From Persicimonas caeni (lineage in GTDB: Bacteria > Myxococcota_A > Bradymonadia > Bradymonadales > Bradymonadaceae), in NCBI RefSeq assembly GCF_006517175.1, contig NZ_CP041186.1, forward strand, positions 4,677,074 to 4,741,073: 64,000 nucleotides of DNA, written 5' to 3'. The translations under genes were made by a program, and so were the position numbers. Positions 6,619 to 49,425 of the stretch are shown here, piece after piece. Position 1 is the first letter of the stretch, and every line of letters starts with the position of its first letter. The notes under the pieces are model-generated. The model did not search any database, was not told where the DNA came from, and saw only the letters and a program-made list of their open reading frames with translations.

Positions 6619-6734
6619 GGTGTTCTGCTGTCTAGAGAGTCGCAACTTTCGATCGCGGAGCGGCTGCTTGCTGCCCGCGAAGCACTCGCCGGCTCCGCTC
6701 GGGGCAAGCCCCGGCTCCGCGAACTGCAAAAGGC

Positions 6735-8435
6735 TCAACTATTGGGCACCTCCTGGGGTGCCATTACAAACGCGTGTTCGAACAAGTACAATCCGATGAT
6801 GGCGCAGACGCCCGCCACTGCCGCCGCGATGGGCGCGCCGACGAGCAAGAGTCCCAGCGGGACGAGGTGGCCGAGCACGATGGCGCCGCCCCAGAAGTAG
6901 CCCTTGTAGGCGCCGTGCGAGATCTCGTGGGCTGCGCGCGCCGCCACCTCGCTTGCGTGGGGCATGCCGAACTCGCCGAGCAAGGTCACGAAGAGGTCGA
7001 CGACGAGGGAAACGGCGAAGAAGCCGACCGCCAGGCTCATCAGGCCTTCGGGAAACGCCATCACCGCGCCCATGATCGAGACGACCGCGCCGCCCATCAT
7101 CGCCGCTTGGACGACGAGGTGCAGCGGCAAGAGCGTGCTCTGCCACAGGTCGCGGCCCTCGGCCTGGCCGAACAAAAAGGCAGTGTAGATCGCGGTGCCG
7201 ATGGCAAATGGCGTGCCCACGCCCAACAGCCAGGGGCGAGCGGCCTCGGCCACCGAGAGGTCCATCCAACCCATCCAAGCGGCGGTCTCGAGCGCCCACC
7301 ACACTGTGGCGATGCCCGAAAACCCGATCAGGAGCAGCGCTCCGCGGGCGAGCCAGCTCTTCCATTGGGGCCGAAACAGAATATTGAGGAAGCGCTCGGG
7401 GCGCTCGAGGTCGAAGACGAGAAGGCCGGTGGTGGCGGCCAAAAAGACCACCGAGATCAACGCGCCCACCGAGGCGACCGGCGCGGTCAGCGTGCTCAAG
7501 CCGGTAAACGCGGCCAGGGCGAGCAGCAAAAAGACGCCTGCGGCGATGCCCTTGGTGACCAGGTAGGCGGGCACCGGCCAGTGCCACGGGATTTCGTGCT
7601 GGGCGTTGTAGGCGACCTGGACCATGTGCTCGGCGCGGCGGCCTTGGCCGAGCTGGATGGGGCCGCCCTGGGGCAAGCCCTGCGTTTGCGGCTCGCGAAT
7701 GCGCACACCCGAGTCGGCGCGCTTGGTCGCGGCGAGTTGAGCAACGCCCGTGCTGCCGTTCGATTTGTGGGCGTGGCCGTTGGTCTTTTGGGCCTTGGCT
7801 CCGTGGGGCTCGACGGTGTCGGCCCACATGTACGTCTCCGGGGTGCGCTCGGTCGCCGTCGGGTGCATCGTGACGTCGTCGCCGTCGATGTAGAAGAGCT
7901 TGGGCGAGGTGCCCTGCTCGGGCTTACGCACGGTGACGCGCTCTTTGGCGAGCACCTTGCTGATCTCGGAGTTCGGGTCGTTCATGTCGCCCGCGATGAT
8001 CGAGTGGGTCGGGCAGACGACCACACACGCCGGCTCCAGGCCCACCTCGGTGCGATGGGCGCAGTAATGGCATTTGGACGCCGTGCCGCTGTCCGGGTCG
8101 ATGTGAATCGCGTCGTAGGGGCACGCCTGCATGCACGCCTTGCAGCCGATGCACGCCTCCGGGTCGAATTCGACGATGCCGTCGTCGCGCTGGTACATCG
8201 CGGTGACCGGGCAGATGCGCACGCACGGCGGGTTCGCGCAGTGGTTGCACCGCGTTACCTGAAATTGACGCCGAGCGTTGGGGTATTCGCCGACCTCAGT
8301 GTACTTTACCCAGGTTCGGTACACGCCCAGCGGCACCTCGTTTTCGCTCTTGCAGGCCGTCGAGCAGGCATGACAGCCGATGCACGAGCGATTGTTGATG
8401 ACGAATCCGTAATTATGTGTTTCAGATTGTGTCAC
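6735..8435 (-). CDS. Fused ferredoxin (PsrB/DmsB-like) and NrfD/PsrC-like membrane subunit (566 aa)
   Basis: Residues 1-200 form a four-cluster ferredoxin: C-I-G-C-H-A-C-S-T-A-C, C-N-H-C-A-N-P-P-C, C-I-G-C-K-A-C-M-Q-A-C and C-H-Y-C ... C. A low-complexity linker (about 200-290) leads to about eight to ten transmembrane helices of the NrfD/PsrC family (290-566). PsrB and PsrC are separate subunits in polysulfide reductase; here one chain carries both, so electron wire and quinone site are covalently tied. With the downstream catalytic subunit this makes a complete quinone-linked molybdoenzyme. The likely start is the GTG at 8435. No Tat or Sec signal precedes the ferredoxin, consistent with a cytoplasm-facing complex. 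Confidence 0.9.
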   Translation of the reverse strand: MTQSETHNYGFVINNRSCIGCHACSTACKSENEVPLGVYRTWVKYTEVGEYPNARRQFQVTRCNHCANPPCVRICPVTAMYQRDDGIVEFDPEACIGCKACMQACPYDAIHIDPDSGTASKCHYCAHRTEVGLEPACVVVCPTHSIIAGDMNDPNSEISKVLAKERVTVRKPEQGTSPKLFYIDGDDVTMHPTATERTPETYMWADTVEPHGAKAQKTNGHAHKSNGSTGVAQLAATKRADSGVRIREPQTQGLPQGGPIQLGQGRRAEHMVQVAYNAQHEIPWHWPVPAYLVTKGIAAGVFLLLALAAFTGLSTLTAPVASVGALISVVFLAATTGLLVFDLERPERFLNILFRPQWKSWLARGALLLIGFSGIATVWWALETAAWMGWMDLSVAEAARPWLLGVGTPFAIGTAIYTAFLFGQAEGRDLWQSTLLPLHLVVQAAMMGGAVVSIMGAVMAFPEGLMSLAVGFFAVSLVVDLFVTLLGEFGMPHASEVAARAAHEISHGAYKGYFWGGAIVLGHLVPLGLLLVGAPIAAAVAGVCAIIGLYLFEHAFVMAPQEVPNS

Positions 8436-8673
8436 GGTGTTTCAACGAAAGTGGACAAGTGAGGGCGCGAGGCCGGCCGAGAGCGTGTCTAATGTGGGAA
8501 CGCCCGGAAGATCTGCAAGAGGAGTGCCATGATGGGCCGATCTTATCGTTCGAGAGGGCTGGACACCACCGTCACCGTCCTACATTTGCTCTCGTTGGCC
8601 CATCGGTCGCTGCGAAGGGGGCCAGTGCAGCGGCTCAGATCACACCACAACCAGACAACAAGGGAGGTAGAAG

Positions 8674-9258
8674 ATGTCCACGCAAGCACGTCCGCCGGAG
8701 CAATCGCCTTCGCAAGATCATATCAACGGGATCGACACCGAGACGCTCTTCGAGAAGCTCGACCAGCTCGAGGCCAATCCGGACCTGGCCCAGACGACCT
8801 GGCGAGCGACAACGAGTTGGGAGGGAGGAGATATCACCCGAACCCATATCGGTTCGTGGGTGCTCGGCGGGGAGGAGAACCCACAAGATTTCGAGATCAT
8901 GATCGACGAGCCGGTCGAGTTGCTGGGACAGGGCAAATACCCCAACCCGCAGCAGGTGCTCTTTGCCGCCATCAACGCGTGCATCATGAACACGTTTGTG
9001 GTCAACGCAGCGGTCAAAGGGATCCGTCTCGACAAGCTCGAGATCGAACTCGAGGGCGACATCGACCTACGCGGCTTCTTGGGGATCGACGAGTCGGTGC
9101 CCAAAGGCTACGAGGAGCTCAATTTCGTGGCCCGGGTCAGCGGGGATGGCACGCGCGAGCAGTACGAGGAGCTGTTGAAGGCCGCCTGCGGCCACTCGCC
9201 GAACTACTACACCGTCACCAACCCGGTGCCGATCAACGGGCGCGTCGAGATGATCTGA
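8674..9258 (+). CDS. OsmC-family protein (194 aa)
   Basis: OsmC/Ohr-type fold with both redox cysteines: I-N-A-C-I-M-N in the central helix region and A-A-C-G-H-S-P-N-Y near the C-terminus, followed by the V-T-N-P-V-P-I strand typical of the family. Such proteins reduce organic hydroperoxides through a reactive Cys pair; some family members have other roles. A strong ribosome site (AAGGGAGGT, six bases before the ATG) fixes the start. The first 45 residues are an extension with no recognised domain. It is divergent from the molybdoenzyme unit across 238 bases of intergenic DNA in which I see no clear terminator. Confidence 0.88.
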   Translation: MSTQARPPEQSPSQDHINGIDTETLFEKLDQLEANPDLAQTTWRATTSWEGGDITRTHIGSWVLGGEENPQDFEIMIDEPVELLGQGKYPNPQQVLFAAINACIMNTFVVNAAVKGIRLDKLEIELEGDIDLRGFLGIDESVPKGYEELNFVARVSGDGTREQYEELLKAACGHSPNYYTVTNPVPINGRVEMI

Positions 9259-9266
9259 TCGCCTTC

Positions 9267-9518
9267 ACACCTCCAGCTCCGCTTCGCTACGCAGGAGGCT
9301 ATCAAAGAAGGGATGCCGCCCTCCGGGCTCCAGGTGTTGTAAGGCCTCAGTTCGAGCATGGCCCGCGCCACCTGTAGCTCCTTGGCAACTCAACCCCAAG
9401 GTCGACATGTGGTGAACTGGGCAGGGCCGACGAGAAGCGAGCCCGAAGGGCGCTACCACCCTTTGATAGCCCCCTGCGCAGCGAGCGCGTAGTGCGACCG
9501 GAGCTGGGGGATGGAGGT
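9267..9518. repeat. MITE-like palindromic element, copy 1
   Basis: About 250 bp with long imperfect terminal inverted repeats. Left arm from 9271 (CTCCAGCTCCGC..., CTACGC, AGGAGGCTATCAAAG, CGCCCTCCGGGCT); right arm 9448-9518 is its complement (AGCCCGAAGGGCG, CTTTGATAGCCCCCTGCG, CGGAGCTGGGGG). The core (about 9330-9445) has no ORF. A second copy in opposite orientation, sharing core sequence such as GCCACCTG and TTGGCAACTC, lies at 40541-42305 and is split by an insertion sequence. The element ends four bases from the stop of the SDR gene and may also serve as a transcription terminator between convergent genes. Confidence 0.8.
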
Positions 9519-9521
9519 CAA

Positions 9522-10601
9522 CTAACGACGCCGACTCAAATTCTGAAATTGTTCGGTGGCCTTTTGGCCGAGCGCGGCGAAGGTGTCGAGCAGGGAGCGG
9601 GCGTCGTCGTCGAGCGTGTCGTAGACCTCGCTGCCCGGCTCGGCTCGTTGGTGGGCGCCGTCGGCCGACGGCAACACCAGGCGGTTGATCGCGCCCATCA
9701 TCTTCGTGGTGGTGCCGGGCAGCAGCCCGTGGAACCAGCTCAACAGCTTGGCCGGAGCCGACAACACACGCTCGGCGCTGCCGCGCTTGGTCGCGGCGAT
9801 GATGCGCCGGGCGGCGCGCTCGACGTTCATCGAGATCATCGGCAGGCCTGCGCCCATCGAAAACCAGGTGAACTCCTCGTCGCGCTTGCCCTTGAACAGG
9901 GCGTTGACGTGCGATCCGGTGCGCATCAGCCCCGGCGCAATCGTGATGATGTCGACGCCGCGGCCGGCCATCTCGGCGCGCAGCCCCTCGGAAAAGCCCA
10001 CCGCGGCGAACTTCGCGCAGCAATAGGGAAGCAGATGCGGCACGCTGACCTTGCCGCCGATCGAGGTGATGTTGACGATGCGGCCCTCGCCGCGGGCGAG
10101 CATCTGCGGGAGCACGGCGCGTGTGGGGTGCAACACCCCCCAGAACATCGTGTCCATGGCCATCTCGAAGTCGTCGACGTCGAGGTTTTCGACCGGGCCC
10201 ACCTGGATGATGCCGGCGTTGTTGACCAAGATGTCGACCGGCCCGAACGCCTCGGCGACCTCGCCCACGAAGCGGTCGACCTGGGCTTGGTCGGCCACGT
10301 CACACACGCCGGTGACCACTTGGGCGTCCTCGTCTTCGAGGCGGCGCCGGGCGATGTCGAGCTCCTCTTCGTCGCGCGCGCAGATCGCCACCGGACAGCC
10401 CATGCGCGCAAAGTCGCGCGCCAGCACAAAGCCCAGGCCCTTCGAGCCTCCGGTGATGAGCACCGTCTTTCCCGACAGGTCGTCGGCGCGAAAGCGCTGG
10501 ATACCCAGATATCCGGCAGCCAGCCCCACGGCGAATGACAAAAGATTTCCGGCTTCCATGACTCCCCCGGCAATGGCTTCTCGAAAAGAAAACGCCCGCA
10601 C
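9522..10601 (-). CDS. Membrane-anchored short-chain dehydrogenase/reductase (359 aa)
   Basis: Classical SDR Rossmann fold: cofactor loop T-G-G-S-K-G-L-G, N-N-A-G, catalytic Ser in N-I-T-S-I-G-G and the Y-C-C-A-K active-site pair. An Arg after the second beta strand (C-A-R-D-E-E-E) favours NADP(H). Before the Rossmann fold is one hydrophobic segment (NLLSFAVGLAAGYLGIQRF) that probably anchors the enzyme to the membrane, and about 90 residues follow the core. Start choice: GTG at 10601 has AGGAG five bases upstream; a GTG at 10607 and ATG at 10559 are alternatives. Substrate unknown; lipid or aldehyde substrates would fit a membrane anchor. Confidence 0.85.
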   Translation of the reverse strand: MRAFSFREAIAGGVMEAGNLLSFAVGLAAGYLGIQRFRADDLSGKTVLITGGSKGLGFVLARDFARMGCPVAICARDEEELDIARRRLEDEDAQVVTGVCDVADQAQVDRFVGEVAEAFGPVDILVNNAGIIQVGPVENLDVDDFEMAMDTMFWGVLHPTRAVLPQMLARGEGRIVNITSIGGKVSVPHLLPYCCAKFAAVGFSEGLRAEMAGRGVDIITIAPGLMRTGSHVNALFKGKRDEEFTWFSMGAGLPMISMNVERAARRIIAATKRGSAERVLSAPAKLLSWFHGLLPGTTTKMMGAINRLVLPSADGAHQRAEPGSEVYDTLDDDARSLLDTFAALGQKATEQFQNLSRRR

Positions 10602-10667
10602 GATCACTCCTTAAGCGTAATCGCGCGGGCGGGTTCCAGTAGGTCGGGGGCTGTCGGTCGGCGGGCC

Positions 10668-11615
10668 TTATTCGGCCGGGTCGACCGCCCCGTCGGTCGC
10701 CGGAGGACCGTCATGCTCGGCGCGCACCCGCCTGCTGATGACCGCCACCTTTTTGTGCAACTCCTCGAGCGCCTGGTCGAGCTCGAACAGCTCGTGCTCG
10801 ACGGTGTGCTCCGGCTCGGTGATGCCCTGCTTCTTCATGCGCTCGCGCTCGTCGAACTCCTCCTGCTCCATGGTCGCCTCTTCCATGCCGTTCATGATGA
10901 CACCGATGAACAGGTTGAGGATGACCATCGTGCCCAAGAGCACGAAGCTAACGAAGAAGGCCGACGCCACAACGGGCATGGCGTTGGGGTCGGTGCACAG
11001 GTGCTCGACGCCGTCGTAGCCGTACTCGTCGCAGCCGTACATGTTGATGTACATCACGTCGGTCCAGTCCTCGAGGGTGACCACCCGGAACAGGCTGAGC
11101 GTGGCCAGGTGCAGCGTCTCGAAGTGCATCGGGTCGTTGGCGCCGAAGATGAACACCGCGGCGACCGCGTACACGTAGAACAAAAGCCCCAACAGGATCG
11201 TCACGTAACCCATCGACGGAAGACTCTTGAGCAGCGCTCCGACGAGCAACTGCAGCCTGGGCAGCGCGCTCAGCAGCTTCAAGACACGCAGCAGGCGCAC
11301 CAGACGCAGGATCACCGCGTAACTTCCCGCTCCCGGCACGAAACAGACCGCCACGATGAAGAAGTCGAAGACGTTCCACGGGTCCTTGAAATAGTTCCAC
11401 GGCTTGGAGCCCTCGGCGCCCATCTTGACGACGACCTCGGCCACGAAGATCCACAAGATGATCTCGTTGAGGATGTGCAGTTCGGTCTCGTAGGCCTCGA
11501 CGACCGACGGGTAGGTCTCCATGCCGACGACCACGCCGGCGAGGATGATGACGAAGGTGATGAAGTTGGTAAACCACTTCGCCTCGGCGATCTCTTGGAG
11601 CTTCTCGACAAGCAA
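10668..11615 (-). CDS. Voltage-gated cation channel, bacterial NaV/CaV type (315 aa)
   Basis: One-domain, six-helix ion channel (NaChBac family), acting as a tetramer in the inner membrane. S4 carries the gating charges R104-R107-R110-K113. The pore filter is T-L-E-D-W-T-D (residues 180-186). NavAb has TLESWSM and its engineered calcium-selective form CavAb has TLDDWSD, so this natural filter carries both added aspartates of the calcium version. Between filter and S6 is an unusual acidic insert with two cysteines (C195, C207) that could form an external disulfide. After S6 comes a charged linker and a C-terminal heptad region, the usual tetramer coiled coil. A TTG start with AGGAGG six bases upstream is well supported. 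Confidence 0.9.
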   Translation of the reverse strand: MLVEKLQEIAEAKWFTNFITFVIILAGVVVGMETYPSVVEAYETELHILNEIILWIFVAEVVVKMGAEGSKPWNYFKDPWNVFDFFIVAVCFVPGAGSYAVILRLVRLLRVLKLLSALPRLQLLVGALLKSLPSMGYVTILLGLLFYVYAVAAVFIFGANDPMHFETLHLATLSLFRVVTLEDWTDVMYINMYGCDEYGYDGVEHLCTDPNAMPVVASAFFVSFVLLGTMVILNLFIGVIMNGMEEATMEQEEFDERERMKKQGITEPEHTVEHELFELDQALEELHKKVAVISRRVRAEHDGPPATDGAVDPAE

Positions 11616-36063: not shown

Positions 36064-37473
36064 ATGGATAACAAGACGAGTTTTCAGGCAGTGATCATGG
36101 CCGCGGGCAAGGGCACGCGCCTCAAGTCGGAGCAGCCGAAGGTTCTCCACGAGGTGTTGGGAAAGCCGATGGTCGCCTATGCGGTCGACGCCGCCCTCGA
36201 GGCGGGCGCCGAGCGGGTGGTCGTGGTGCTCGGCTACGGGCGTGAGCAGGTCCAGTCGTGGCTCGAGGAGCATCGCGACTCCGAGCGGATCGAGTTCGCC
36301 GTGCAGGAGAACCAGCTCGGCACCGCCCACGCGGTGTACGCCGCGCGCGATTACTTCGACGCGGCGCCCGAGTACACCGCGATCCTGTCGGGCGACGTGC
36401 CCAACATGAACGCCGAGGCACTCGGCGACTTCGTCACGAAGACGGCCAACTCGATGTATCCGCTGGGCATGATGACCGCCAAGCTCGACGACCCGGCGCA
36501 CTACGGGCGCGTGCTGCGCAACCCCGACGGCGAGGTCACCGGCGTCATCGAGTACAAGGATGCCACCGAAAAGCAGCGCCAGGTCGACGAGATCAACGCC
36601 GGATTCTACGCGGTCGAGACCGAGTTTCTGGCGCGGTACCTGCCCGAGATCTGCGAGGGGCCGGCCGACAACGCCCAAGGCGAGTACTATCTGACCGACC
36701 TGATCGCCGTCGCCGCGAATCACGCGGGCGTCCACGGCTGGATCATCGACGACATCGGGCTCATCCAGGGCGTCAACACGCGTCGAGACCTCGCCGAGGC
36801 GACGCGTTTTGCCCAAAAGCGCATCAACCAAAAATGGATGGACGAGGGCGTCACCTTCATCGACCCCGACGCCACCTACATCGAGCCCGACGTGCAGCTA
36901 GGCACCGACGTCACGCTGTATCCGGGCGTGCACCTCAAGGGCCAGACGCGCATCGGCTCGGGCACCGTGGTCGAGAACGGCTCGGTCATCACAGACTGCC
37001 AACTCGCCGCGAACGTCCACGTCAAAGCCAACTGCTACCTGACGCTCGCCCGCGTCGACAGCGGCACCGCGCTGGGCCCGTTCGCCCACCTTCGGCCCGG
37101 GTCCGACATCGGCAAGGACTGTAAGGTCGGAAACTTCGTCGAGGTCAAAAAGTCGAAGTTCGAGGACGGCGTCAAAGCCGGCCACTTGAGCTACTTGGGC
37201 GACGCGCACCTGGGCAAAGGCACCAACGTGGGCGCAGGCACGATCACCTGCAACTACGACGGCAAGAAGAAGCACCGCACCGAGGTCGGCGAGGGGTCGT
37301 TCATCGGCTCGAACACCGCCATCGTCGCGCCCGCCAAGCTCGGCAAAAAGGCGTATATCGGCGCCGGCAGCGTGATCACCGACGAAGTCCCCGACGAGTC
37401 GCTCGCGATTGCGCGCGGTCGTCAGAAGAACTTCGACGGTTGGGTGCGTAAGAAGGAAGAAGAGGAGGGTTAA
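36064..37473 (+). CDS. glmU: Bifunctional GlmU: GlcNAc-1-P uridyltransferase / GlcN-1-P acetyltransferase (469 aa)
   Basis: Makes UDP-GlcNAc for peptidoglycan and LPS. The N-terminal nucleotidyltransferase has M-A-A-G-K-G-T-R-L-K-S-E-Q-P-K-V-L-H and the Q-E-N-Q-L-G-T-A-H-A and S-G-D-V-P loops. The C-terminal left-handed beta-helix carries the acetyltransferase residues in A-G-H-L-S-Y-L-G-D and T-C-N-Y-D-G, and ends in the usual I-A-R-G-R-Q. Length is typical. No good ribosome site is seen right before the ATG. The stop overlaps that of the convergent adenosyltransferase gene by two bases. glmS is not adjacent. Confidence 0.95.
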   Translation: MDNKTSFQAVIMAAGKGTRLKSEQPKVLHEVLGKPMVAYAVDAALEAGAERVVVVLGYGREQVQSWLEEHRDSERIEFAVQENQLGTAHAVYAARDYFDAAPEYTAILSGDVPNMNAEALGDFVTKTANSMYPLGMMTAKLDDPAHYGRVLRNPDGEVTGVIEYKDATEKQRQVDEINAGFYAVETEFLARYLPEICEGPADNAQGEYYLTDLIAVAANHAGVHGWIIDDIGLIQGVNTRRDLAEATRFAQKRINQKWMDEGVTFIDPDATYIEPDVQLGTDVTLYPGVHLKGQTRIGSGTVVENGSVITDCQLAANVHVKANCYLTLARVDSGTALGPFAHLRPGSDIGKDCKVGNFVEVKKSKFEDGVKAGHLSYLGDAHLGKGTNVGAGTITCNYDGKKKHRTEVGEGSFIGSNTAIVAPAKLGKKAYIGAGSVITDEVPDESLAIARGRQKNFDGWVRKKEEEEG

Positions 37474-38108
37474 GCGGAGCTACCGGCCGACAGGTTCGGA
37501 TCCCACAGGACCTCGTCGGCCCCGCTTCCCTTCACCGCCGCCCAGCGGCTCCACACGAACAACGCATCACTCAGACGGTTCAGGTACGCGATGGCGTTCG
37601 GGTCGACCTCCTCGGTCTCGGCCAGCGCCACCGTCTTGCGCTCGGCGCGGCGGCAGACCGTGCGCCCCAGGTGCAGCTCGGCGTTCAGCCGCGAGCCGCC
37701 GGGCAGCACGAACGAGCGAAGCTCCGGCAGCTCCTCGTTCATCTTGTCGATGCTCGCCTCGAGCGCAGCCACGTCGGTCTCGTCGACGCGCGGCATCTTC
37801 TCGCCGATATCCTCCGGCAGCGTCGCCAGAATACTCCCCAGGTTGAACAACTCGTGCTGCACGCGCAGCAGCGTGTGCGCCAACTCGTCGAAGGCGTCGT
37901 TGTCGCCGTGCTCGTCGATGAGCGTCTGGCGACACATGCCGATGATGGCGTTGAGCTCGTCGACGGTGCCGTACGAGTCGATGCGCGCGGCGGTCTTCGG
38001 CACGCGCTGGCCGCCGACCAGGCTCGTCTGGCCGCTGTCGCCCTTGCGGGTGTAGACGCGGTTGATGGCTAGTTGGGGATCTTCGAATTTTTTATCTCTT
38101 TCGCTCAT
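37470..38108 (-). CDS. PduO-type cob(I)alamin adenosyltransferase (212 aa)
   Basis: Transfers the adenosyl group of ATP to cob(I)alamin to make coenzyme B12. The ATP site Y-T-R-K-G-D-S-G-Q-T-S-L is at residues 19-30, followed by R-I-D-S-Y-G-T-V-D-E-L-N-A; the C-terminal half has L-P-G-G-S-R-L-N-A-E-L-H, C-R-R-A-E-R and Y-L-N-R-L-S-D-A-L-F, all diagnostic of the PduO/MMAB group. The ATG at 38108 is preceded by AAAGGAG at six bases. Its presence about 4 kb from the cobalamin-riboswitch operon fits use of imported B12. A large hairpin lies just upstream in its leader or promoter. Confidence 0.94.
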   Translation of the reverse strand: MSERDKKFEDPQLAINRVYTRKGDSGQTSLVGGQRVPKTAARIDSYGTVDELNAIIGMCRQTLIDEHGDNDAFDELAHTLLRVQHELFNLGSILATLPEDIGEKMPRVDETDVAALEASIDKMNEELPELRSFVLPGGSRLNAELHLGRTVCRRAERKTVALAETEEVDPNAIAYLNRLSDALFVWSRWAAVKGSGADEVLWDPNLSAGSSA

Positions 38109-40762: not shown

Positions 40763-40841
40763 ATAGGATCGAAGAACGCCCCCTGAAGGGTGTACGGTGT
40801 GGTTGCGATTCCAATCCACCATTCACCCAAAAGGAGGCGTG

Positions 40842-41909
40842 ATGAGTACTATGTACGTTGGCGCAGACATTCACAAGTCGACCTCAACCGTTGTGGTCAA
40901 AGACGAGCAAGGGAGGACGGTAAGCAAGTGGGTCGGCCACACCAGCGCAGAGAATCTGTCGACGCAGGTCATGGCCATCCCCGGTACAGTGCACATGACC
41001 TTTGAAGAGTCTCCGTACGCTGCTTGGATGTGGGATACGCTGCATCCGCTTGTCGACAAGCTGGTGGTGTGTGACCCGAGACGAAACAAGCTCATTGCCG
41101 AAGATGACAAGAGTGACGAAATCGATGCGGAGACCCTGGCTGATCTGCTCCGCGGTGGATTCCTCAAGCCAGTGTACCATGGCTCCCATAGCAGCCGTGA
41201 TATTCGCCATCTGGTCAAGAGTTATCAGCAGGTCATCTCGGATCGAGTGCGCATTAAAAACCGTTTATGCGGGCTCTTCGACGGCTACGGTGTTCGGACA
41301 AACGCCAAAGAGCGCTACACATGTGATCAAAAGGCTCGCGAGACACTGCTCAAGAAGCTTCCAGGGCGCGGCATCCAACAGCGAGGGCGTCGACTCTATG
41401 TCCAGCTTGATCTGCTCGATGAACTGGTCGACGAGGCCCTTCGAGACATGATCGCTGAGGCTCGGCGCTTCGATGCCTTCGAATGGATCAAGAGCATCCC
41501 GGGATTCGGTGATAAGCGAGCTGCCGCGACCATCGGCTGGGTGCGCACCCCCCATCGGTTTCGAGGCAAGCGCCAGTTCTTCAAGTATGTCGGATTGGCT
41601 GTCGTGCATCGAAGCACGTCAGATTGGAGGCAAGGAGCAAAAGGCCTCGAGCGAAAGAACAATGGCCAGACGATGGGGCTCAACAACAAGTACAGCCGGC
41701 CGCTCAAAGATATCATCAAAGGCGCCGCAGTGACGGCCGCAACGACGGACCCGGCATGGGGCGCACATGAGGCTGCACTGATCGATGACGGGATGGACCG
41801 GGAGATCGCCCGGCTGACCATCGCCCGGAAGCTCGCGTCGATCTTATTGTCCATCTGGAAACGAGGAGAACACTACAACGCAGAAAAGACAGTGCTAAGA
41901 GGGTCGTGA
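40842..41909 (+). CDS. IS110/IS1111-family transposase (355 aa)
   Basis: DEDD-type recombinase. The N-terminal RuvC-like domain has V-G-A-D-I-H-K-S-T (first Asp), F-E-E-S-P-Y (Glu) and K-S-D-E-I-D-A-E-T-L (Asp pair). The C-terminal Transposase_20 domain has S-I-P-G-F-G-D-K-R-A-A-A-T-I-G and Y-V-G-L-A-V-V-H-R-S-T-S, where the catalytic Ser is expected. The ATG at 40842 follows AAGGAGG; the 15-codon frame upstream is leader. The reading frame is intact, so the element may still be mobile. IS110 transposases act with a guide (bridge) RNA encoded in the element's non-coding end. Confidence 0.95.
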   Translation: MSTMYVGADIHKSTSTVVVKDEQGRTVSKWVGHTSAENLSTQVMAIPGTVHMTFEESPYAAWMWDTLHPLVDKLVVCDPRRNKLIAEDDKSDEIDAETLADLLRGGFLKPVYHGSHSSRDIRHLVKSYQQVISDRVRIKNRLCGLFDGYGVRTNAKERYTCDQKARETLLKKLPGRGIQQRGRRLYVQLDLLDELVDEALRDMIAEARRFDAFEWIKSIPGFGDKRAAATIGWVRTPHRFRGKRQFFKYVGLAVVHRSTSDWRQGAKGLERKNNGQTMGLNNKYSRPLKDIIKGAAVTAATTDPAWGAHEAALIDDGMDREIARLTIARKLASILLSIWKRGEHYNAEKTVLRGS

Positions 41910-42336: not shown

Positions 42337-43575
42337 TCACCATCCCAACCCCACCCGCCCCATCACGTTCGACAACGTCATCACAAAATACACCTCATCG
42401 CCGACCACCTGCAGATCGACCGGGCCCTCCAAATACCCGTCGGTCGTGCCCAGGTCGAGGGGCCCGGCGAGCACTGCGTCGCAGGAGGTGTCGAACAGGT
42501 AGAGCGCGTCGTCGTTGAAGGCGGTCAGGTAGATGACGCCGCGTGCGTCGATGGTGGCGTTGTGCAGCGACTTATCGTCGGTGGCGTAGACCTCGAGGGG
42601 GTCGCTCGTATCGTGCAGCCACTGCATCGCCTGCAGGTCGAACACGAAGAGGACCGGCGCGGTGGCGCTGGCGAGGTACAGGCGGGTCGCGTCCGGGGTG
42701 ACGAGCGGGCGTCCCGGCGCGCCCATGCGCTCGTCGTCGGTGCGTTCGAGCGCGAAGATCTGGCGCTCCGGGGCGGTCGGGTCGTCGGTCTCGGTCCAAA
42801 GCTCGAGCGCACCGTCGGACGTGACCGTGCCCGAGTAGTGAATCGCGCCGCTACTCACCACGGCGATGCGGGGGCCGTGGGGCGTGTCGATGGCGGCGAT
42901 ATATTGCGGGTTTTTCTTGGCGGTGGGGATGCTCCCGAGAACCTCGCGCGTGTCGCGGTCGAGCACGGTCACCGAGCCCTCGTCAAAGCCTCGGCCGCGC
43001 AGATGCGTGTTGGTCACGTAGATATAGTCGTCGCTGGCCGTGACCCCCTGCGGGGCGTCGAACGCCTCGGTGCCCGCGCCGATCTCGGCGACGACCTCGC
43101 CGGTCTGCGTGCTCGCCACCGTGAGCGTATTCGCCCCCTGGTTGGCGATGTAGGCGAGGTCTCTGGGCGCGTCGACGTACAGGTCGTAGGGGTTGCGGTT
43201 AACCCCGAGGTCGATGAAGAAGGCGTCGAAGGCGCCGGTGGCGGGATCGAAGCGGCTGACGGTGTTGTCGCTGCTCTCGACAACCCACAGGTATCCGTCG
43301 CCGCGGGCGATGGCGTTGGGGTCGGCACCGAGCGTCTGGAAGTCGGCCCAGACGGTCGCGCGGGGCGCGCTCGGGCCCGCCTCACAGACGGGCCCCGCGG
43401 CCTCGTAAGAGCGCGTCGGACCCCCTGCCTCGTCAGGCTCCCCGCACCCAACCAAGCAGAGCGCCACAACCACGACAAGCGAGCACAGCGAGCGCGCCGC
43501 GCGCAGTGTTGCGCGGCCTCGGTAGCCCCGGGCGACCGAAGGGAGTCCGGGGTTGTGCAATCGCCTACTCACCAT
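42337..43575 (-). CDS. BtuG-like beta-propeller lipoprotein (412 aa)
   Basis: Lipoprotein signal (SLVVVVALCLVGC, lipobox L-V-G-C) followed by a YncE/BtuG-like propeller: repeated blades such as G-Y-L-W-V-V-E-S-S-D-N-T-V-S-R-F, N-P-Y-D-L-Y-V-D and Y-I-A-N-Q-G-A-N-T-L-T-V-A. BtuG proteins of Bacteroidetes are surface propellers that bind vitamin B12 very tightly and pass it to BtuB. Here the gene is third in an operon headed by a cobalamin riboswitch, and its ATG (GGTGAGTAG overlap) lies inside the end of the preceding lipoprotein gene, so translation is coupled. I infer B12 binding; the propeller alone would not prove it. Confidence 0.8.
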   Translation of the reverse strand: MVSRRLHNPGLPSVARGYRGRATLRAARSLCSLVVVVALCLVGCGEPDEAGGPTRSYEAAGPVCEAGPSAPRATVWADFQTLGADPNAIARGDGYLWVVESSDNTVSRFDPATGAFDAFFIDLGVNRNPYDLYVDAPRDLAYIANQGANTLTVASTQTGEVVAEIGAGTEAFDAPQGVTASDDYIYVTNTHLRGRGFDEGSVTVLDRDTREVLGSIPTAKKNPQYIAAIDTPHGPRIAVVSSGAIHYSGTVTSDGALELWTETDDPTAPERQIFALERTDDERMGAPGRPLVTPDATRLYLASATAPVLFVFDLQAMQWLHDTSDPLEVYATDDKSLHNATIDARGVIYLTAFNDDALYLFDTSCDAVLAGPLDLGTTDGYLEGPVDLQVVGDEVYFVMTLSNVMGRVGLGW

Positions 43576-44284
43576 GCACCACGCCCACCGCGTCGAGGTC
43601 GAAGCCGACGTTGTCGGCCTCGGAGTTGGTGTTGTCGAGCATGTCGCGGATGCGCACGTAGCGCACCCGGTCGACGCGCTGGTTACCCGAATTCTGGTCG
43701 TCCCAGTTCAGGTCGGCCAAGTCGAACGCGTCACCGCCGGTGATCTGCGGGTCGAGGGGGACGACGGCCGCGGGGTCGTAGGCGTTGGTGGGCGTCCAGC
43801 CCGCGCACCCGGGCCAGCGGCCCGGCTTGGTGGGCTCGTCGGAGCACTCGAAGGTATGCCAGGTCTCGCCGTCGGCGCTGACCGACACCTCGGCGAGCTC
43901 GGCCCACACCTCGTCGGGGTTGTCACGAATCCAAAACGCGTTTTCGAAGACCACGAAATCGGCCCCGGGACCGTCGACGATCGCCCGGTCGAAGCCGAGC
44001 ACGATCTCGCCGCCCGCCCCCAGGCTGAGCACCCAGTGGCGCTCGGCCGCAGGCGTGCTGCTGAACGCCCCGTCGGGCTCCCCGAGCACGTTGTCCGGCA
44101 GGTAGTGCTGCCCCCATCCGGCTCCCTTGCCCGGCTCGAACGACACGACCTCGGTCGCATAGAGCGACGGCTCGGCCGGCCCATCGGCCGCCTCCCCACA
44201 ACCCACGCCAAGCCCCAAGACCCCAAGACTCAAGACCACAAGCCTCCAAGACCCAAGACCCCAAGACAGTTTGCCGTTGCACAT
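43565..44284 (-). CDS. Surface lipoprotein of the B12-regulated operon (239 aa)
   Basis: Lipoprotein (VVLSLGVLGLGVGC lipobox G-V-G-C) with a beta-rich domain: V-L-G-E-P-D-G, L-G-A-G-G-E-I-V-L-G-F-D, I-V-D-G-P-G-A-D-F-V-V-F-E-N-A-F-W, then A-E-V-S-V-S-A-D-G-E-T-W and A-G-W-T-P-T-N. This is the 'cell surface protein' type often found beside TonB receptors; related proteins sit in B12-uptake operons of Bacteroidetes. The ATG at 44284 is preceded by AGGTAGGTG. Second gene of the operon, 48 bases after the first and overlapping the propeller gene. A ligand is not identifiable; a second B12-capture or hand-over role is my inference. Confidence 0.75.
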   Translation of the reverse strand: MCNGKLSWGLGSWRLVVLSLGVLGLGVGCGEAADGPAEPSLYATEVVSFEPGKGAGWGQHYLPDNVLGEPDGAFSSTPAAERHWVLSLGAGGEIVLGFDRAIVDGPGADFVVFENAFWIRDNPDEVWAELAEVSVSADGETWHTFECSDEPTKPGRWPGCAGWTPTNAYDPAAVVPLDPQITGGDAFDLADLNWDDQNSGNQRVDRVRYVRIRDMLDNTNSEADNVGFDLDAVGVVHGE

Positions 44285-44316
44285 CACACACCTACCTCTG
44301 CTCGAGAAGCCCAAAC

Positions 44317-44334
44317 GATCGCCCACCGGCGATC
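44317..44334 (-). promoter_or_regulatory. Intercistronic hairpin between lipoprotein genes 1 and 2
   Basis: Perfect 7-bp stem GATCGCC / GGCGATC with CACC loop, overlapping the stop codon of the first lipoprotein gene. No T-run follows, so it more likely stabilises or partitions the operon mRNA than terminates it. Confidence 0.5.
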
Positions 44335-44974
44335 ACTCCGGGGTCATCTGCGTCCACGAAAACCCACCGCAGCCACCGTTGGCCGGATCGGTGTCGTCGG
44401 CCGTCTCCCCCGTCGTGCGCGCCGCCTCGGCGGTCTCCAGCCCGTAGTCGACGATGCAGTAGAAGAACGCGCCCTGGCTGTCGGGCTCGGTCCACACCAG
44501 CTTGCTGTAGGTGTCCGGGTTGTACTCGGCATCCTGCGGGGTGTAGGTCACCGCCCAGTTGTCGGCGTTGTCGAAATCCTCGATGGGATTGTCGTTCCAC
44601 ATGTCGGCGGTGATCGTCTCGGTCGTGTCGAATTGGGTGGTGTAGGTGCCCTCGACCTCGATCGTGGCGGCGCCGGCGTCCTCATCGGTGCCGGTATCTT
44701 CGTCGGTACCGGCGTCAGTGCCGGTATCTTCGTCGGTACCGGTGTCGTCGTCGGTGCCGGTATCGTCGGTGAACGCATCTTCCTCGGACCCGGTATCCTC
44801 ATCGGCGCCGGTATCTTGCTCCGTCACGTCAGAGCCGGCGTCGGCGGCCGTGTTGTTGGCGGCGTTGTTGGTGGTGTCGTCGTCATCGCCGCAAGCGGCG
44901 AGCGCGAGCGAAAAGGCGAGAATGCACGTCAGCGCGCCCCACCGGCGCAGGTTACACAGCTTCGAAAACATCAT
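44333..44974 (-). CDS. First lipoprotein of the B12-regulated operon, Asp/Thr-rich linker (213 aa)
   Basis: ATG at 44974 follows GAGGAG by seven bases and gives a lipoprotein signal (ALTCILAFSLALAAC). A low-complexity linker of about 70 residues built from D-T-G-T-D and E-D-T-G units (15- and 18-bp DNA repeats at 44690-44830) projects a C-terminal domain of about 110 residues with W-N-D-N-P, W-A-V-T-Y-T-P, Y-S-K-L-V-W-T and paired cysteines (F-Y-C-I-V-D-Y-G ... N-G-G-C-G-G-F-S-W-T). The domain is one I have seen only in uncharacterised proteins. Directly downstream of the cobalamin riboswitch, it is a strong candidate for an unrecognised corrinoid-handling protein. Confidence 0.75.
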   Translation of the reverse strand: MMFSKLCNLRRWGALTCILAFSLALAACGDDDDTTNNAANNTAADAGSDVTEQDTGADEDTGSEEDAFTDDTGTDDDTGTDEDTGTDAGTDEDTGTDEDAGAATIEVEGTYTTQFDTTETITADMWNDNPIEDFDNADNWAVTYTPQDAEYNPDTYSKLVWTEPDSQGAFFYCIVDYGLETAEAARTTGETADDTDPANGGCGGFSWTQMTPE

Positions 44975-45099
44975 GGGGGTACTCCTCAAGTAGCATGGGT
45001 TCGGGTCGAGGAGCAGAGAGGAGCAGAGGGAGAGAAAACACGGTAAGCCGCGTCGAACCCACGCGCCGCACGCTTCCGACCCGAAGCGAAAAATGGCTA

Positions 45100-45248
45100 T
45101 GTCGCAGCACGCAATATCCTGGCTTGCGGGTCATCCTCGCCCGACACCTTCCCAACTCCGTTAGGAGCCAGTGGATTCGTCGAGTTCGTCACCGCTTACA
45201 GTTGCGGGGGCAGCGCCGGTTTTCCACCGGCTTCCTGCGTGGTTGCGG
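45100..45248 (-). promoter_or_regulatory. Cobalamin (B12) riboswitch
   Basis: Read on the minus strand the segment has all conserved blocks in order: GCAGGAAGCCGGTGGAAAAC, CCGGCGCTGCCCCCGC, CAACTGTAAGCGG, a variable arm, GGGAAGG, GGGCGAGGATGACCCGC and AAGCCAGGATATTG. These match the AdoCbl riboswitch core (the P3-P6 junction with CCCGCAACTGTAA and the final GCCAGGAGAC-type block). It lies 126 bases before the first lipoprotein start; the region between (44975-45099) can form hairpins and could sequester the GAGGAG ribosome site. Expected to shut off the three-lipoprotein operon when B12 is plentiful. Confidence 0.94.
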
Positions 45249-45335: not shown

Positions 45336-45534
45336 AAGCCGGTTTGCGATCGGAGCGATCGAAGGGGGGGAGATCACAAGGCGCGTTTGTGATTGGACCC
45401 CTCGAAGGGGGGCGGAAGACAAAGCGGCTTTGTATTTGGACCCCTCGAAGGGGGTCGGAAGGCAAAGCGGCTTTGTGTTTGGACCCCTCGAAGGGGGTCG
45501 GAAGGCAAGGCGGCTTTGTGTTGGGACGGTCCGA
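45336..45534. repeat. 43-bp tandem repeat with double hairpins
   Basis: TTTGTGTTTGGACCCCTCGA, AGGGGGTCGGAAGGCAAAGC and GGC repeat with a 43-bp period: starts at 45386, 45429, 45472 and 45515 (last one partial), with degraded sequence before 45386. Each unit has two perfect small palindromes, CCCCT-CGA-AGGGG and CAAAGC-G-GCTTTG. The units are contiguous with no spacers, so this is not a CRISPR. All lie between the riboswitch and the RAYT gene. Confidence 0.93.
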
Positions 45535-45558
45535 GTGTGTGTGGAGGGCGAAGCTTGT

Positions 45559-45672
45559 TGAGGCGCGCAGCTAGGGACACGCAAGCTGCGGCCGGGAGAC
45601 CGCAGGGCGGGCCGGAGGCGCCGCGCCCCGACCTGTACGCCCCGCACAGATCGGGGCGCGCCGAACGTGTCC
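45559..45672. repeat. REP-like core upstream of the RAYT gene
   Basis: One copy of the core also found six times behind the RAYT gene: GGGACACGCAAG, then CTGCGGCCGGGAGACCGCAG from 45586 (stem CTGCGG/CCGCAG), GGCGGGCCGGAGGCG, and GCGCCCCGACCTG ... GATCGGGGCGCG (stem). Confidence 0.88.
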
Positions 45673-45780: not shown

Positions 45781-45806
45781 CACGACCATCGACAGAAGGA
45801 GACACA

Positions 45807-46442
45807 ATGACGAATACAGAGATCAATACAGAGATCAAGTACTCGCGGGGCTACCTGCCCCACATTCACACCGAACACGGTCAGACGATCACGTTGAGAC
45901 TGCACGATTCACTGCCCGTCGCATCATTCAAACGCATGGAGGCGACGGCCGATAGCCCCGAAGAGCGTCACAAAATCGTGGCGCGGTTTCTCGACGAGGG
46001 CCGCGGCTCCTGCATTTTGGAGCGCCCGGAGGTTGCTGCGATCGTGCGCGACAGCATTTTGTGGTGCGACGGACGCAAATACGACCTCAAGGACTGGGTG
46101 GTGATGCCGAACCACGCCCATGTCTCCTACCGCAACGGGCGGAAGATACCGACGCGGGTGGCCGGAGAGATCAAGTCGTTTACGGCCAAGGAGATCATCA
46201 AGGTGTCGGAGGACGTCGAGGCGCCGGTGTGGATGCCCGGGACCTTCGACCGCTACATCCGCGACGAGGTGCACGATTTCAACGTGCAGCGGTATATCTG
46301 GTTCAATCCGGTGCGGGCGGGGCTTGTGGAGGATCCGTGGGATTGGGAGTTTTCGAGCATTCACGACTCGCCGTTCGACAAGGAGGAGTTGCGGCGGTGG
46401 TTCGAGCAGAACAAGGATGGATTTTGGGATAACGGGTTTTGA
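45807..46442 (+). CDS. REP-associated tyrosine transposase, RAYT (211 aa)
   Basis: Y1 HUH single-strand transposase domesticated as a RAYT. HUH motif in V-V-M-P-N-H-A-H-V (residues about 96-104) and the catalytic Tyr in F-D-R-Y-I-R-D-E, followed by the RAYT signature R-Y-I-W-F-N-P-V-R-A-G-L-V and W-D-W-E-F-S-S. ATG at 45807 has AGAAGGAG six bases before; the long frame upstream to 45393 is only repeats. It is flanked on both sides by REP-like palindromes, the usual context in which RAYTs act on REP/BIME DNA. It lies between a B12-regulated operon and a TonB receptor but has no metabolic link to them. Confidence 0.93.
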   Translation: MTNTEINTEIKYSRGYLPHIHTEHGQTITLRLHDSLPVASFKRMEATADSPEERHKIVARFLDEGRGSCILERPEVAAIVRDSILWCDGRKYDLKDWVVMPNHAHVSYRNGRKIPTRVAGEIKSFTAKEIIKVSEDVEAPVWMPGTFDRYIRDEVHDFNVQRYIWFNPVRAGLVEDPWDWEFSSIHDSPFDKEELRRWFEQNKDGFWDNGF

Positions 46443-47372
46443 GGCGCGCAGCGAGGGACACGCAAGCTGCGGCCGGGAGACCGCAGGGCGGGCCGGAGGC
46501 GCCGCGCCCCGACCTGTAAGCCTCGCGCGGGTCGGGGCGCGGGCGTCCCCGCCCGCCGGCGTCGCCTCCGGCGCGCCGAACATGTCTGCCGCAACAAGCA
46601 GAGGCGCCCAGCCAGCGCGAAGAACACGCAAGCTGCGGCCGGGAGACCGCAGGGCGGGCCGGAGGCGCCGCGCCCCGACCTGTAAGCCTCGCGCGGGTCG
46701 GGGCGCGGGCGTCCCCGCCCGCCGGCGTCGCCTCCGGCGCGCCGAACATGTCTGCCGCAACAAGCAGAGGCGCCCAGCCAGCGCGAAGAACACGCAAGCT
46801 GCGGCCGGGAGACCGCAGGGCGGGCCGGAGGCGCGGGCGTCCCCGCCCGTCGGCGTCGCCTCCGGCGCGCCGAACATGTCTGCCGCAACAAGCAGAGGCG
46901 CCCAGCCAGCGCGAAGAACACGCAAGCTGCGGCCGGGAGACCGCAGGGCGGGCCGGAGGCGCCGCGCCCCGACTGGTGTGAGGAGCGCAGCGAGGGACAC
47001 GCAAGCTGCGGCCGGGAGACCGCAGGGCGGGCCGGAGGCGCCGCGCCCCGACCTGTAAGCCTCGCGCGGGTCGGGGCGCGGGCGTCCCCGCCCGCCGGCG
47101 TCGCCTCCGGCGCGCCGAACATGTTCGCCTCAACCTTGCCGGGGCTCACAACCAGGTCGGGGCGCGGGCGTCCCCGCCCGCCGGCGTCGCCTCCGGCGCG
47201 CCGAACATGTTCGCCTCAACCTTGCCGGGGCTCACAACCAGGTCGGGGCGCGGGCGTCCCCGCCCGCCGGCGTCGCCTCCGGCGCGCCGAACATGTCCGC
47301 CGCAACAAGCAGAGGAGGTCAGCTAAGCCAAGAACACACAAGCTGCGGCCGGGAGACCGCGCCGCGCCCCGA
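46443..47372. repeat. REP/BIME-like array downstream of the RAYT gene
   Basis: Six copies of the core CTGCGGCCGGGAGACCGCAG-type hairpin start at 46467, 46633, 46799, 46927, 47006 and 47343; the first three are spaced exactly 166 bp apart. Full units also carry GCGCCCCGACC ... GGTCGGGGCGC (11-bp stem), CGGGCGTCCCCGCCCG and CCTCCGGCGCGCCGAACATG. Within 47120-47300 an 86-bp segment (ACCAGGTCGG ... TTGCCGGGGCTCAC) is tandemly duplicated. Long open frames across the array on both strands arise only from the periodic GC-rich sequence. No gene is supported between 46443 and 47418. Confidence 0.92.
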
Positions 47373-47418: not shown

Positions 47419-49425
47419 GTGAAAAAGCCGTCCCACATACCCACCTGCCTCCTCGCCACGCTGCTGCTGGCGCCCGGCCTCGCCCGCGCCGAAGACGCCG
47501 AAGAGCCCGACGAGAACACCGTCAAGACCGTCTCGCCCAAGGAGCGGTCGGTCGACGATGCGCGCCTGCCCTCCGGCTTCGTCACCCGCGTCGAGGTCGA
47601 CGAGGCGACCGGGAGTGGGCGCGATCTCGGCGACGAACTCGAGCGGGTGCCCGGGGTGACGGTGCGCCAGACGTCGAGCTTCGGGCGTCCGGCGTTTGCG
47701 ACGGTGCGCGGGGGCAATTCGCGCCAGCTCGCCGTGTCGCTCAACGGGATGCGCATCAGCGCGCCGGCGGGGGTGGGGTTCGACGTGGGGAGCTTGTCGC
47801 TTGCGGGGGTGGAGGCGGTCGACGTGTATCGCGGGGCGGCGGGGGCCGTGCACGGGGCGGGGGCGCTCAGCGGGGCGCTCGACCTGCGTACGCGGCTGCC
47901 GAAGAACGACGCCGGCTGGCAGGGCGCGGCGACCGGGCTGGGCGGAAGCTACGCGACCTACGGAGTCTTCGGGCATACGGCCTACGGCGGGGAGTCGTAC
48001 GCGGTGCGCCTCGACGCCGGTTGGCGCCAGAGCGAGGGCGACTTCGCGTTTGTCGACCGGCAGGGCACCGCGCAGGAGCGCGTGAACAACGACCACCGGC
48101 AGTTGAGCGTGCTGGCGGCCGGGCGCGTCGACGTCGGCGAGGGCCACCTCGAGCCGCTGGTGATGTACGACGGGGGCTCGGGCGGCGCGCCCGGGCCCAG
48201 CGAGTCGCCCGAGCGCTTCGACGAGGCGCGCGTCGACCAGAGGCGCCTCGTCGGCCAGCTCGCCTGGCGGCAGCGAAACCTCGCTGCAGGCGATTGGGGC
48301 GCGATGGATGCTCGCGCGATGGCGGGCTACGGGCGGCGCGACACCGACTACGACAATCCGGAGTCGTACCTGGGCGGCGCGCAGATCTCGGACACCTCGA
48401 CCCTGCACACCTTCGAGGTCGACGCGCAGGCGAGCACCTTCTTTGCGTTCGGGGATATCCTGCACCTGACGCTCGAGGGCCGCCGGCAAAGCTACGAGGC
48501 GGCGCACGAGGAGGTCTTCGCCGACGCGACCGACCGGTCGAGCATCGAAGCCTCGCGGCTGAGCCTGGCGGCGGGCGTGTCGAACGAGTTGCTGCTGGCG
48601 GGCGACGCCGTCAGCCTCGTCGCCGCGCTGCGCCTCGAGCACTTGAAGGACGCGCGCCAGGCGGCCGCCGACCGTGCGTGGACGCCGCTGATGCCGTCGG
48701 TGGGGGCGATCTGGCGGGCGCACCGGTGGTTGGAGTTCAAGTCGAACCTCGCGCGCACCTTCCGTGCGCCCGATTTCGACGAGCTCTACCTGCGCATGGC
48801 CGGCCTGGAGGGCAATCCCGACCTCGCCCCGGAGCGCGCGCTGAGCGCCGACGCCGGCGTGCGGCTCGGGCCCGAGGAGGGCCCCGTATCGCTCGAAGCG
48901 ATCTACTTTCGCAACGCGCTCGACGAGTCGATCTACTTTGTGGCCGTGTCGGCGTGGAAGTTTCAGGCCCAGAATCTGGGGGCGGGGACGAGCCAGGGCG
49001 TCGAGACGACGCTGTCGGTGCGGCCGAGTGAGCGTGTCGACCTGCTTGCAAGCTACACGCTGACTGACGCCACCCTCGACGGGCTTCCCGACGGGGTGAC
49101 CTTGCTCGGCCAGCCGGTCCACCAGGGCTCGGTGCGCGCGGAGGTCGAATTGGGCGGGCTGGGGCCCTTCGACGGTGTGTCTTCGATGCGTCTGTTCGGC
49201 GAGGGCTTCTGGCGAAGCCGAGTCTACTTCGACAACTTCGGCCATATCTCCAACCCGCCGTTTTGGACGGCGGACCTGGGCGCGGCGTTCGCGCCGGTCG
49301 ACTGGGTCGAGCTGACCTTCAACGCCCGCAACCTGGCCGACAACCGGCGAGGGGCCGACAGCCTGCAGAGGCCGTTGCCGGGGCGGGCGTTTTATGGGGC
49401 GGTGAGCGTGGAGTTTGGGGAGTAG
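47419..49425 (+). CDS. TonB-dependent outer-membrane receptor, BtuB-like (668 aa)
   Basis: GTG at 47419 starts a Sec signal peptide (IPTCLLATLLLAPGLARA). The plug domain follows: D-E-L-E-R-V-P-G-V-T-V-R-Q-T-S, V-R-G-G-N-S-R-Q-L-A-V-S-L-N-G and V-E-A-V-D-V-Y-R-G-A-A-G-A-V-H-G-A-G-A-L. The remainder is a 22-strand-type barrel with F-R-A-P-D-F-D-E-L-Y, N-P-D-L-A-P-E and the closing N-A-R-N-L-A-D-N-R ... P-L-P-G-R-A-F motif, ending in a C-terminal V-S-V-E-F. Size is like BtuB/FhuA-short receptors. It is divergent from the riboswitch-led lipoprotein operon across the REP island; B12 as substrate is inferred from that context only. Confidence 0.88.
   Translation: MKKPSHIPTCLLATLLLAPGLARAEDAEEPDENTVKTVSPKERSVDDARLPSGFVTRVEVDEATGSGRDLGDELERVPGVTVRQTSSFGRPAFATVRGGNSRQLAVSLNGMRISAPAGVGFDVGSLSLAGVEAVDVYRGAAGAVHGAGALSGALDLRTRLPKNDAGWQGAATGLGGSYATYGVFGHTAYGGESYAVRLDAGWRQSEGDFAFVDRQGTAQERVNNDHRQLSVLAAGRVDVGEGHLEPLVMYDGGSGGAPGPSESPERFDEARVDQRRLVGQLAWRQRNLAAGDWGAMDARAMAGYGRRDTDYDNPESYLGGAQISDTSTLHTFEVDAQASTFFAFGDILHLTLEGRRQSYEAAHEEVFADATDRSSIEASRLSLAAGVSNELLLAGDAVSLVAALRLEHLKDARQAAADRAWTPLMPSVGAIWRAHRWLEFKSNLARTFRAPDFDELYLRMAGLEGNPDLAPERALSADAGVRLGPEEGPVSLEAIYFRNALDESIYFVAVSAWKFQAQNLGAGTSQGVETTLSVRPSERVDLLASYTLTDATLDGLPDGVTLLGQPVHQGSVRAEVELGGLGPFDGVSSMRLFGEGFWRSRVYFDNFGHISNPPFWTADLGAAFAPVDWVELTFNARNLADNRRGADSLQRPLPGRAFYGAVSVEFGE

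Follow-up and report, generated by a model that had tools for sequence, protein, structure and literature searches.

A segment of 64,000 nucleotides from the genome of Persicimonas caeni (contig NZ_CP041186.1, positions 4,677,074 to 4,741,073), the whole of which is called here the window, contains on its minus strand a cobalamin riboswitch followed by three genes, numbered from the riboswitch as gene 1, gene 2 and gene 3, all of which encode proteins with lipobox signal peptides (Table 1). The host is a marine predatory bradymonad of the phylum Myxococcota. Genes 1 and 2 are separated by 48 nt, genes 2 and 3 overlap by 11 nt, and a leader of about 140 nt lies between the aptamer and gene 1. 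The initial annotation, made from the sequence alone, had placed a complete riboswitch at 45100-45248 of the minus strand, with three overlapping or close lipobox genes behind it and an adenosyltransferase gene nearby, and these features were confirmed by the model searches and spacings given here; the TonB receptor that it had described as divergent from the operon is indeed present and divergent, and is not closely packed with it.

Table 1. Features of the riboswitch operon and of the associated genes in the window
Feature	Position	Strand	Evidence
Cobalamin riboswitch aptamer, RF00174	45112..45237	minus	87.9 bits (gathering score 31.5), E 2.5e-20
Leader from aptamer to gene 1, candidate translational expression platform	44975..45111	minus	RNA fold
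Gene 1, lipoprotein, Asp/Thr-rich linker and C-terminal beta domain of ~110 residues, LIC13354-like, putative cobamide capture	44333..44974	minus	LAAC lipobox, model
Gene 2, lipoprotein, predicted BtuH-type B12-binding-domain fold, LIC13355-like	43565..44284	minus	GVGC lipobox (weaker than usual), model, profile
Gene 3, lipoprotein, YVTN/YncE-type beta-propeller, putative BtuG-like receptor cap	42337..43575	minus	LVGC lipobox, TIGR02276
TonB-dependent receptor, likely BtuB	47419..49425	plus	PF07715 and PF00593 (Plug and barrel); best PDB relatives BtuB
PduO-type cobalamin adenosyltransferase	37470..38108	minus	TIGR00636, 181.6 bits (cut-off 108)

The search of the whole host genome (one contig of 8,047,206 bases, or 8.05 Mb), which is the scope of all genome-wide statements below, returned the riboswitch ahead of the trio as the sole cobalamin riboswitch match, and the chance that the one riboswitch of the genome would fall less than 1 kb from a chosen operon, on the right strand, is about 6e-5. 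The CUCCUC stretches of the leader could possibly pair with the GAGGAG Shine-Dalgarno sequence, as a translational expression platform would require. A transcription terminator in the leader was rejected, as no terminator-like site was seen on the operon strand and the RNA fold was no better than that of shuffled sequences (z 0.17).

The association with the riboswitch was traced through the homologues of gene 2, which are present in 176 of the 284 genomes of the phylum search and, by a scan of named genomes, in Myxococcota, Bacteroidetes, Planctomycetes, Verrucomicrobia, Cyanobacteria and others. With a covariance model derived from ten riboswitches, a same-strand upstream cobalamin riboswitch was detected, mostly within 1.5 kb, at 60 of 83 distinct gene 2 loci; this linkage is no artefact of our own model, because the Rfam model agreed with it both on the positives (11 of the 12 first-tested loci and all eight of a further set) and on ten negative loci. 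Many loci of the family adjoin BtuB-type receptors and, in Bacteroidetes, also BtuG and DUF4465. In the Bacteroidetes-type loci, a TonB receptor and a propeller lie directly next to the gene 2 homologue, the one tested among these propellers (locus L072) being a true BtuG (8p97, E 6.6e-35), and in eight of the ten scanned Bacteroidetes- or Verrucomicrobia-type loci DUF4465 is encoded just upstream of the gene 2 homologue, between it and the riboswitch, which is the position of gene 1 in the window. DUF4465 (BtuJ) is a surface protein under B12-riboswitch control, and the binding of B12 has been demonstrated for several of its distant members (PMC12751083, PMC13398666). Natural fusions link the trio functionally: two gene 1 domains and a gene 2 domain form one protein in L047 and L052, encoded behind a riboswitch at a distance of under 150 nt, and a propeller is fused to gene 2 in L046, in the same layout as in BtuGH. 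Among the side observations on this family, in the cyanobacterium Moorena (L067) the gene 2 domain and RTX-type calcium repeats are parts of one protein (7875-10313), which is adjoined by a gene for the gene 1 domain on the opposite strand (10546-10959), no riboswitch being seen there, and the gene ahead of the gene 2 homologue in L064 (6527-7750) has a weak DUF4430 match (E 2e-5) and a type IX secretion system (T9SS) sorting tail. DUF4430 resembles the C-terminal domain of transcobalamin and intrinsic factor.

The AlphaFold2 model of gene 2, produced from 78 sequences (predicted local distance difference test, pLDDT, 90.1; predicted template modelling score, pTM, 0.88), was compared by Foldseek with all solved structures, and BtuGH (BT_1490, 8blw) and BtuH2 (BT_1956, 7biz) of Bacteroides thetaiotaomicron came first, with the BtuH domain at ranks 1, 2 and 4. 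The VIA comparison aligned the model with 7biz (Z 13.9, 164 residues, 3.6 A) over chain residues 315-592, which is the region of the B12-binding domain of BtuH2 (PMC8941943), and with residues 388-660 of 8blw (Z 13.4), the next entry being unrelated (Z 9.2). The sequence profile of the family independently matched the same BtuH part of 8blw (E 5.6e-4), BtuGH being the sole BtuH-type chain matched; a Bacteroidetes-weighted profile gave a weaker match (E 0.066), and the Protein Data Bank (PDB) search with the single sequence gave nothing useful. Gene 2 was concluded to be, by its predicted fold, a distant member of the BtuH-domain proteins, with putative B12 binding. Like its two Bacteroides counterparts, it is a lipoprotein of a riboswitch operon; unlike them, it stands alone, without PKD domains, and belongs to another phylum. 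The B12-contacting residues of BtuH2 are Gln333, Asn399, His476, Tyr510, Trp511 and Trp577 (PMC8941943), and in gene 2 Asn87, which is invariant, and Phe89, which is nearly so, have the same spacing as Asn399 and Phe401 of BtuH2, a likeness that is no more than suggestive. The assignment of gene 2 to DUF4465 was ruled out, as neither the window protein nor any of the 78 members matched PF14717, and gene 1 was excluded from DUF4465 by the same model.

Conservation of gene 1 is confined to its C-terminal 111 residues, and 99 of 269 genomes in the phylum encode this domain. The profile was built on the C-terminal domain, since natural gene 1-gene 2 fusion proteins pull gene 2 into full-length profiles. 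For the regulation of gene 1 apart from gene 2, 20 loci were chosen in which the two lie on different contigs of the same genome, and the Rfam cobalamin riboswitch was identified at 14 of them, each time on the same strand and directly ahead of the gene 1 homologue; L098 and L108 contain separate riboswitches for gene 1 and gene 2. This regulation strongly indicates that the gene 1 domain takes part in B12 biology; it may itself bind cobamides. The domain is modelled by AlphaFold2 as a small beta domain (pLDDT 96.5), in which a Cys pair is conserved and several Trp residues are invariant or nearly so, and for which the PDB contains no confident relative (the best Foldseek match is avidin-like, E 0.65, and the best VIA match lipocalin-like, Z 6.9); both likenesses were rejected, their scores being within the level of common arrangements. 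It is a real possibility, if a somewhat doubtful one, that only genes 2 and 3 bind B12, gene 1 serving as a linker or in docking to the receptor, a variant compatible with B12 salvage by the operon: the sequence profile and structure searches detected no relation of gene 1 to a known B12 binder, and the domain often occurs in tandem copies, as spacer domains do. However, the unlinked loci directly behind a riboswitch imply that gene 1 works without gene 2, its Trp residues and Cys pair are strongly conserved, and in the operon it occupies the place of DUF4465.

The window genes that are scattered around the operon were compared with those of relatives in the family, in which a second cobalamin riboswitch heads one operon of receptor, propeller and adenosyltransferase (L174, L175, L176, L177, L180 and L185; L179, at a contig end, contains the receptor only), with identities to the window proteins of 33-44%, 31-43% and 65-68%, respectively. 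Because the orthologues share one riboswitch operon in these relatives, gene 3, the receptor and the adenosyltransferase of the window belong together. The combination of a lipoprotein propeller with a BtuB-type receptor under one riboswitch, by which gene 3 resembles the BtuG of the BtuB-BtuG complexes (PMC10404256), was encountered in six relatives and not in the window, where the receptor is divergent; the receptor scored 68 bits with the BtuB equivalog TIGR01779, below its cut-off of 599.7. Gene 3 putatively fills the part of BtuG by its context and domain type, descent from BtuG being unsupported by sequence. The gap between riboswitch and receptor contains an open reading frame (ORF; 45804-46442, plus strand) that by eye resembles the transposases associated with repetitive extragenic palindromes (REP), without a Pfam match at 1e-5, and is flanked by GC-rich direct repeats (46450-47300) and by short repeats at 45380-45560; these elements may have split an older riboswitch/receptor arrangement. 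Two side observations concern the relatives: MotB/OmpA-like genes follow the adenosyltransferase in their operon (L175, 4457-6135; L185, 1945-3656), and in L181 the genes for the alpha and beta subunits of class I ribonucleotide reductase (5868-8255 and 4852-5871) lie behind another cobalamin riboswitch, ORFs of the same sizes being present in L182. Ribonucleotide reductase is a usual target of B12 riboswitches.

Almost all genomes of Bradymonabacteria are reported to lack the de novo synthesis of vitamin B12 (PMC7460792). The host genome contains the B12-dependent methionine synthase MetH, and the precorrin isomerase CbiC, a marker of corrin synthesis, was not found in it; the host is apparently unable to make vitamin B12. 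Six TonB receptors, counted by the plug domain, and four FecCD permeases are encoded in the genome, and a receptor/FecCD region at 2.39 Mb was rejected as an alternative B12 locus, its receptor resembling heme receptors and a riboswitch being lacking there. With the riboswitch, its conserved linkage, the predicted fold of gene 2 and the operons of the relatives, the operon is very probably one for the salvage of vitamin B12 (cobamides), as the initial annotation had proposed in speaking of a B12-uptake system in a deltaproteobacterial-type genome. Neither of the two outcomes that the annotation had named as refuting it occurred: the riboswitch match is significant, and the homologues mostly occur with B12 riboswitches or B12 genes. 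Its suggestion of unrecognised corrinoid binding by the first two lipoproteins has gained strength from the BtuH-type fold of gene 2 and the riboswitches of gene 1's own, the binding itself being putative. In such an operon, scarcity of B12 would let the riboswitch permit the making of three outer-membrane lipoproteins, of which gene 2 would catch cobamides at the cell surface and gene 1, with its small new beta domain at the end of a flexible Asp/Thr linker, probably would do the same, while the propeller of gene 3 probably would sit on the TonB receptor, like BtuG, and pass the ligand in; the adenosyltransferase would make coenzyme B12 from it inside the cell, and plentiful B12 would bind the leader RNA and shut the operon, possibly at translation.

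Several points weigh against this reading. The identity between gene 2 and BtuH is about 20% over the aligned part, and galactose-binding-like folds bind many ligands. No riboswitch was seen at 23 of the 83 gene 2 loci, several of which lie at contig ends or beside a receptor, and the window receptor, 2.2 kb from the riboswitch, has none of its own. The PDB search with the gene 3 profile, in which 14 sequences matched, reached generic propellers (1l0q, YncE, Lp49) and no BtuG chain, so that gene 3 was rejected as a BtuG by sequence, and of the BtuG-like propeller of the initial annotation the context and domain type were retained.

Gene 1 and gene 2 are related to the families named after the consecutive Leptospira loci LIC13354 (NF047669) and LIC13355 (NF033170), which have the same order as the two genes and whose Leptospira members, unlike these, are described as exoprotein and adhesin lipoprotein. 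Window gene 2 scores 41 bits with NF033170, below the cut-off of 120, which is passed by the gene 2 domains of the riboswitch-linked L047 (133.1) and of the propeller fusion L046 (123.9); window gene 1 scores 22 bits with NF047669 (cut-off 130), matched at E up to 0.01 by 24 of the 30 members of the gene 1 family. LIC_13355 was described as a laminin- and plasminogen-binding adhesin (PMC11891782), expression of both LIC13354 and LIC13355 rises about 3.7-fold in host-adapted cells, and the two reported cobalamin riboswitches of L. interrogans lie at other genes (PMC3953431). No gene 2 homologue turned up in a plasmid search. The resemblance to gene 2 suggests that the LIC_13355 protein may owe its role to B12 scavenging rather than to adhesion. 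The adhesin report, together with BtuL of B. thetaiotaomicron, a lipoprotein of a B12 uptake operon that does not bind B12 (PMC12751083), would fit a B12-regulated operon in which the lipoproteins are not cobamide binders and serve instead as structural, adhesive or vesicle-forming partners or in docking to prey or surfaces. This is unlikely, as all other solved folds fit gene 2 far less well than does the B12-binding domain of BtuH2 and BtuGH, DUF4465, BtuB and BtuG occur at loci of the gene 2 family, and the LIC_13355 binding data came from refolded insoluble protein. The import of some other tetrapyrrole or metal complex, with the riboswitch merely coordinating metal homeostasis, much as some cobalamin riboswitches control cobalt transport genes, is highly improbable, for a cobalamin adenosyltransferase and a BtuB-like receptor are encoded in one operon with the orthologues, and gene 2, of BtuH-type fold, has true BtuG and DUF4465 as neighbours of its family.

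The logic of the salvage operon, in which a riboswitch governs capture lipoproteins that serve BtuB, is that of Bacteroides and hence known, and B12-binding lipoproteins outside Bacteroidetes, the setting stressed by the initial annotation, have a precedent in DUF4465, already noted in Myxococcota (PMC13398666). As far as could be found, the novelty consists of a BtuH-fold family outside Bacteroidetes and of a domain, that of gene 1, without an earlier link to B12 in the open-access literature, in which nothing further was met on cobalamin riboswitches or BtuG with Myxococcota or on BtuH with Leptospira. It is proposed tentatively, with a slight lean against it, that gene 1 represents a new class of cobamide-binding surface domains (of ~110 residues, Cys-paired, with no clear PDB match), that it forms with the BtuH-fold gene 2 a B12-capture pair across Myxococcota and Spirochaetes, and that LIC13354/LIC13355 of Leptospira are really a vitamin-scavenging pair. 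Most of what has been established about accessory B12-capture lipoproteins comes from gut Bacteroides, and the same logic in a predatory member of Myxococcota, apparently unable to make B12, suggests that helper lipoproteins for B12 scavenging are in use far outside the gut Bacteroidetes; the two NCBI families, whose names come only from Leptospira loci, would receive a testable function, by which the adhesin reading of LIC_13355 is put in question, and more protein domains become candidates for B12 binding. As a minor observation, an IS110-family transposase gene (PF01548) is located just downstream of the operon, at 40797-41909 of the plus strand.

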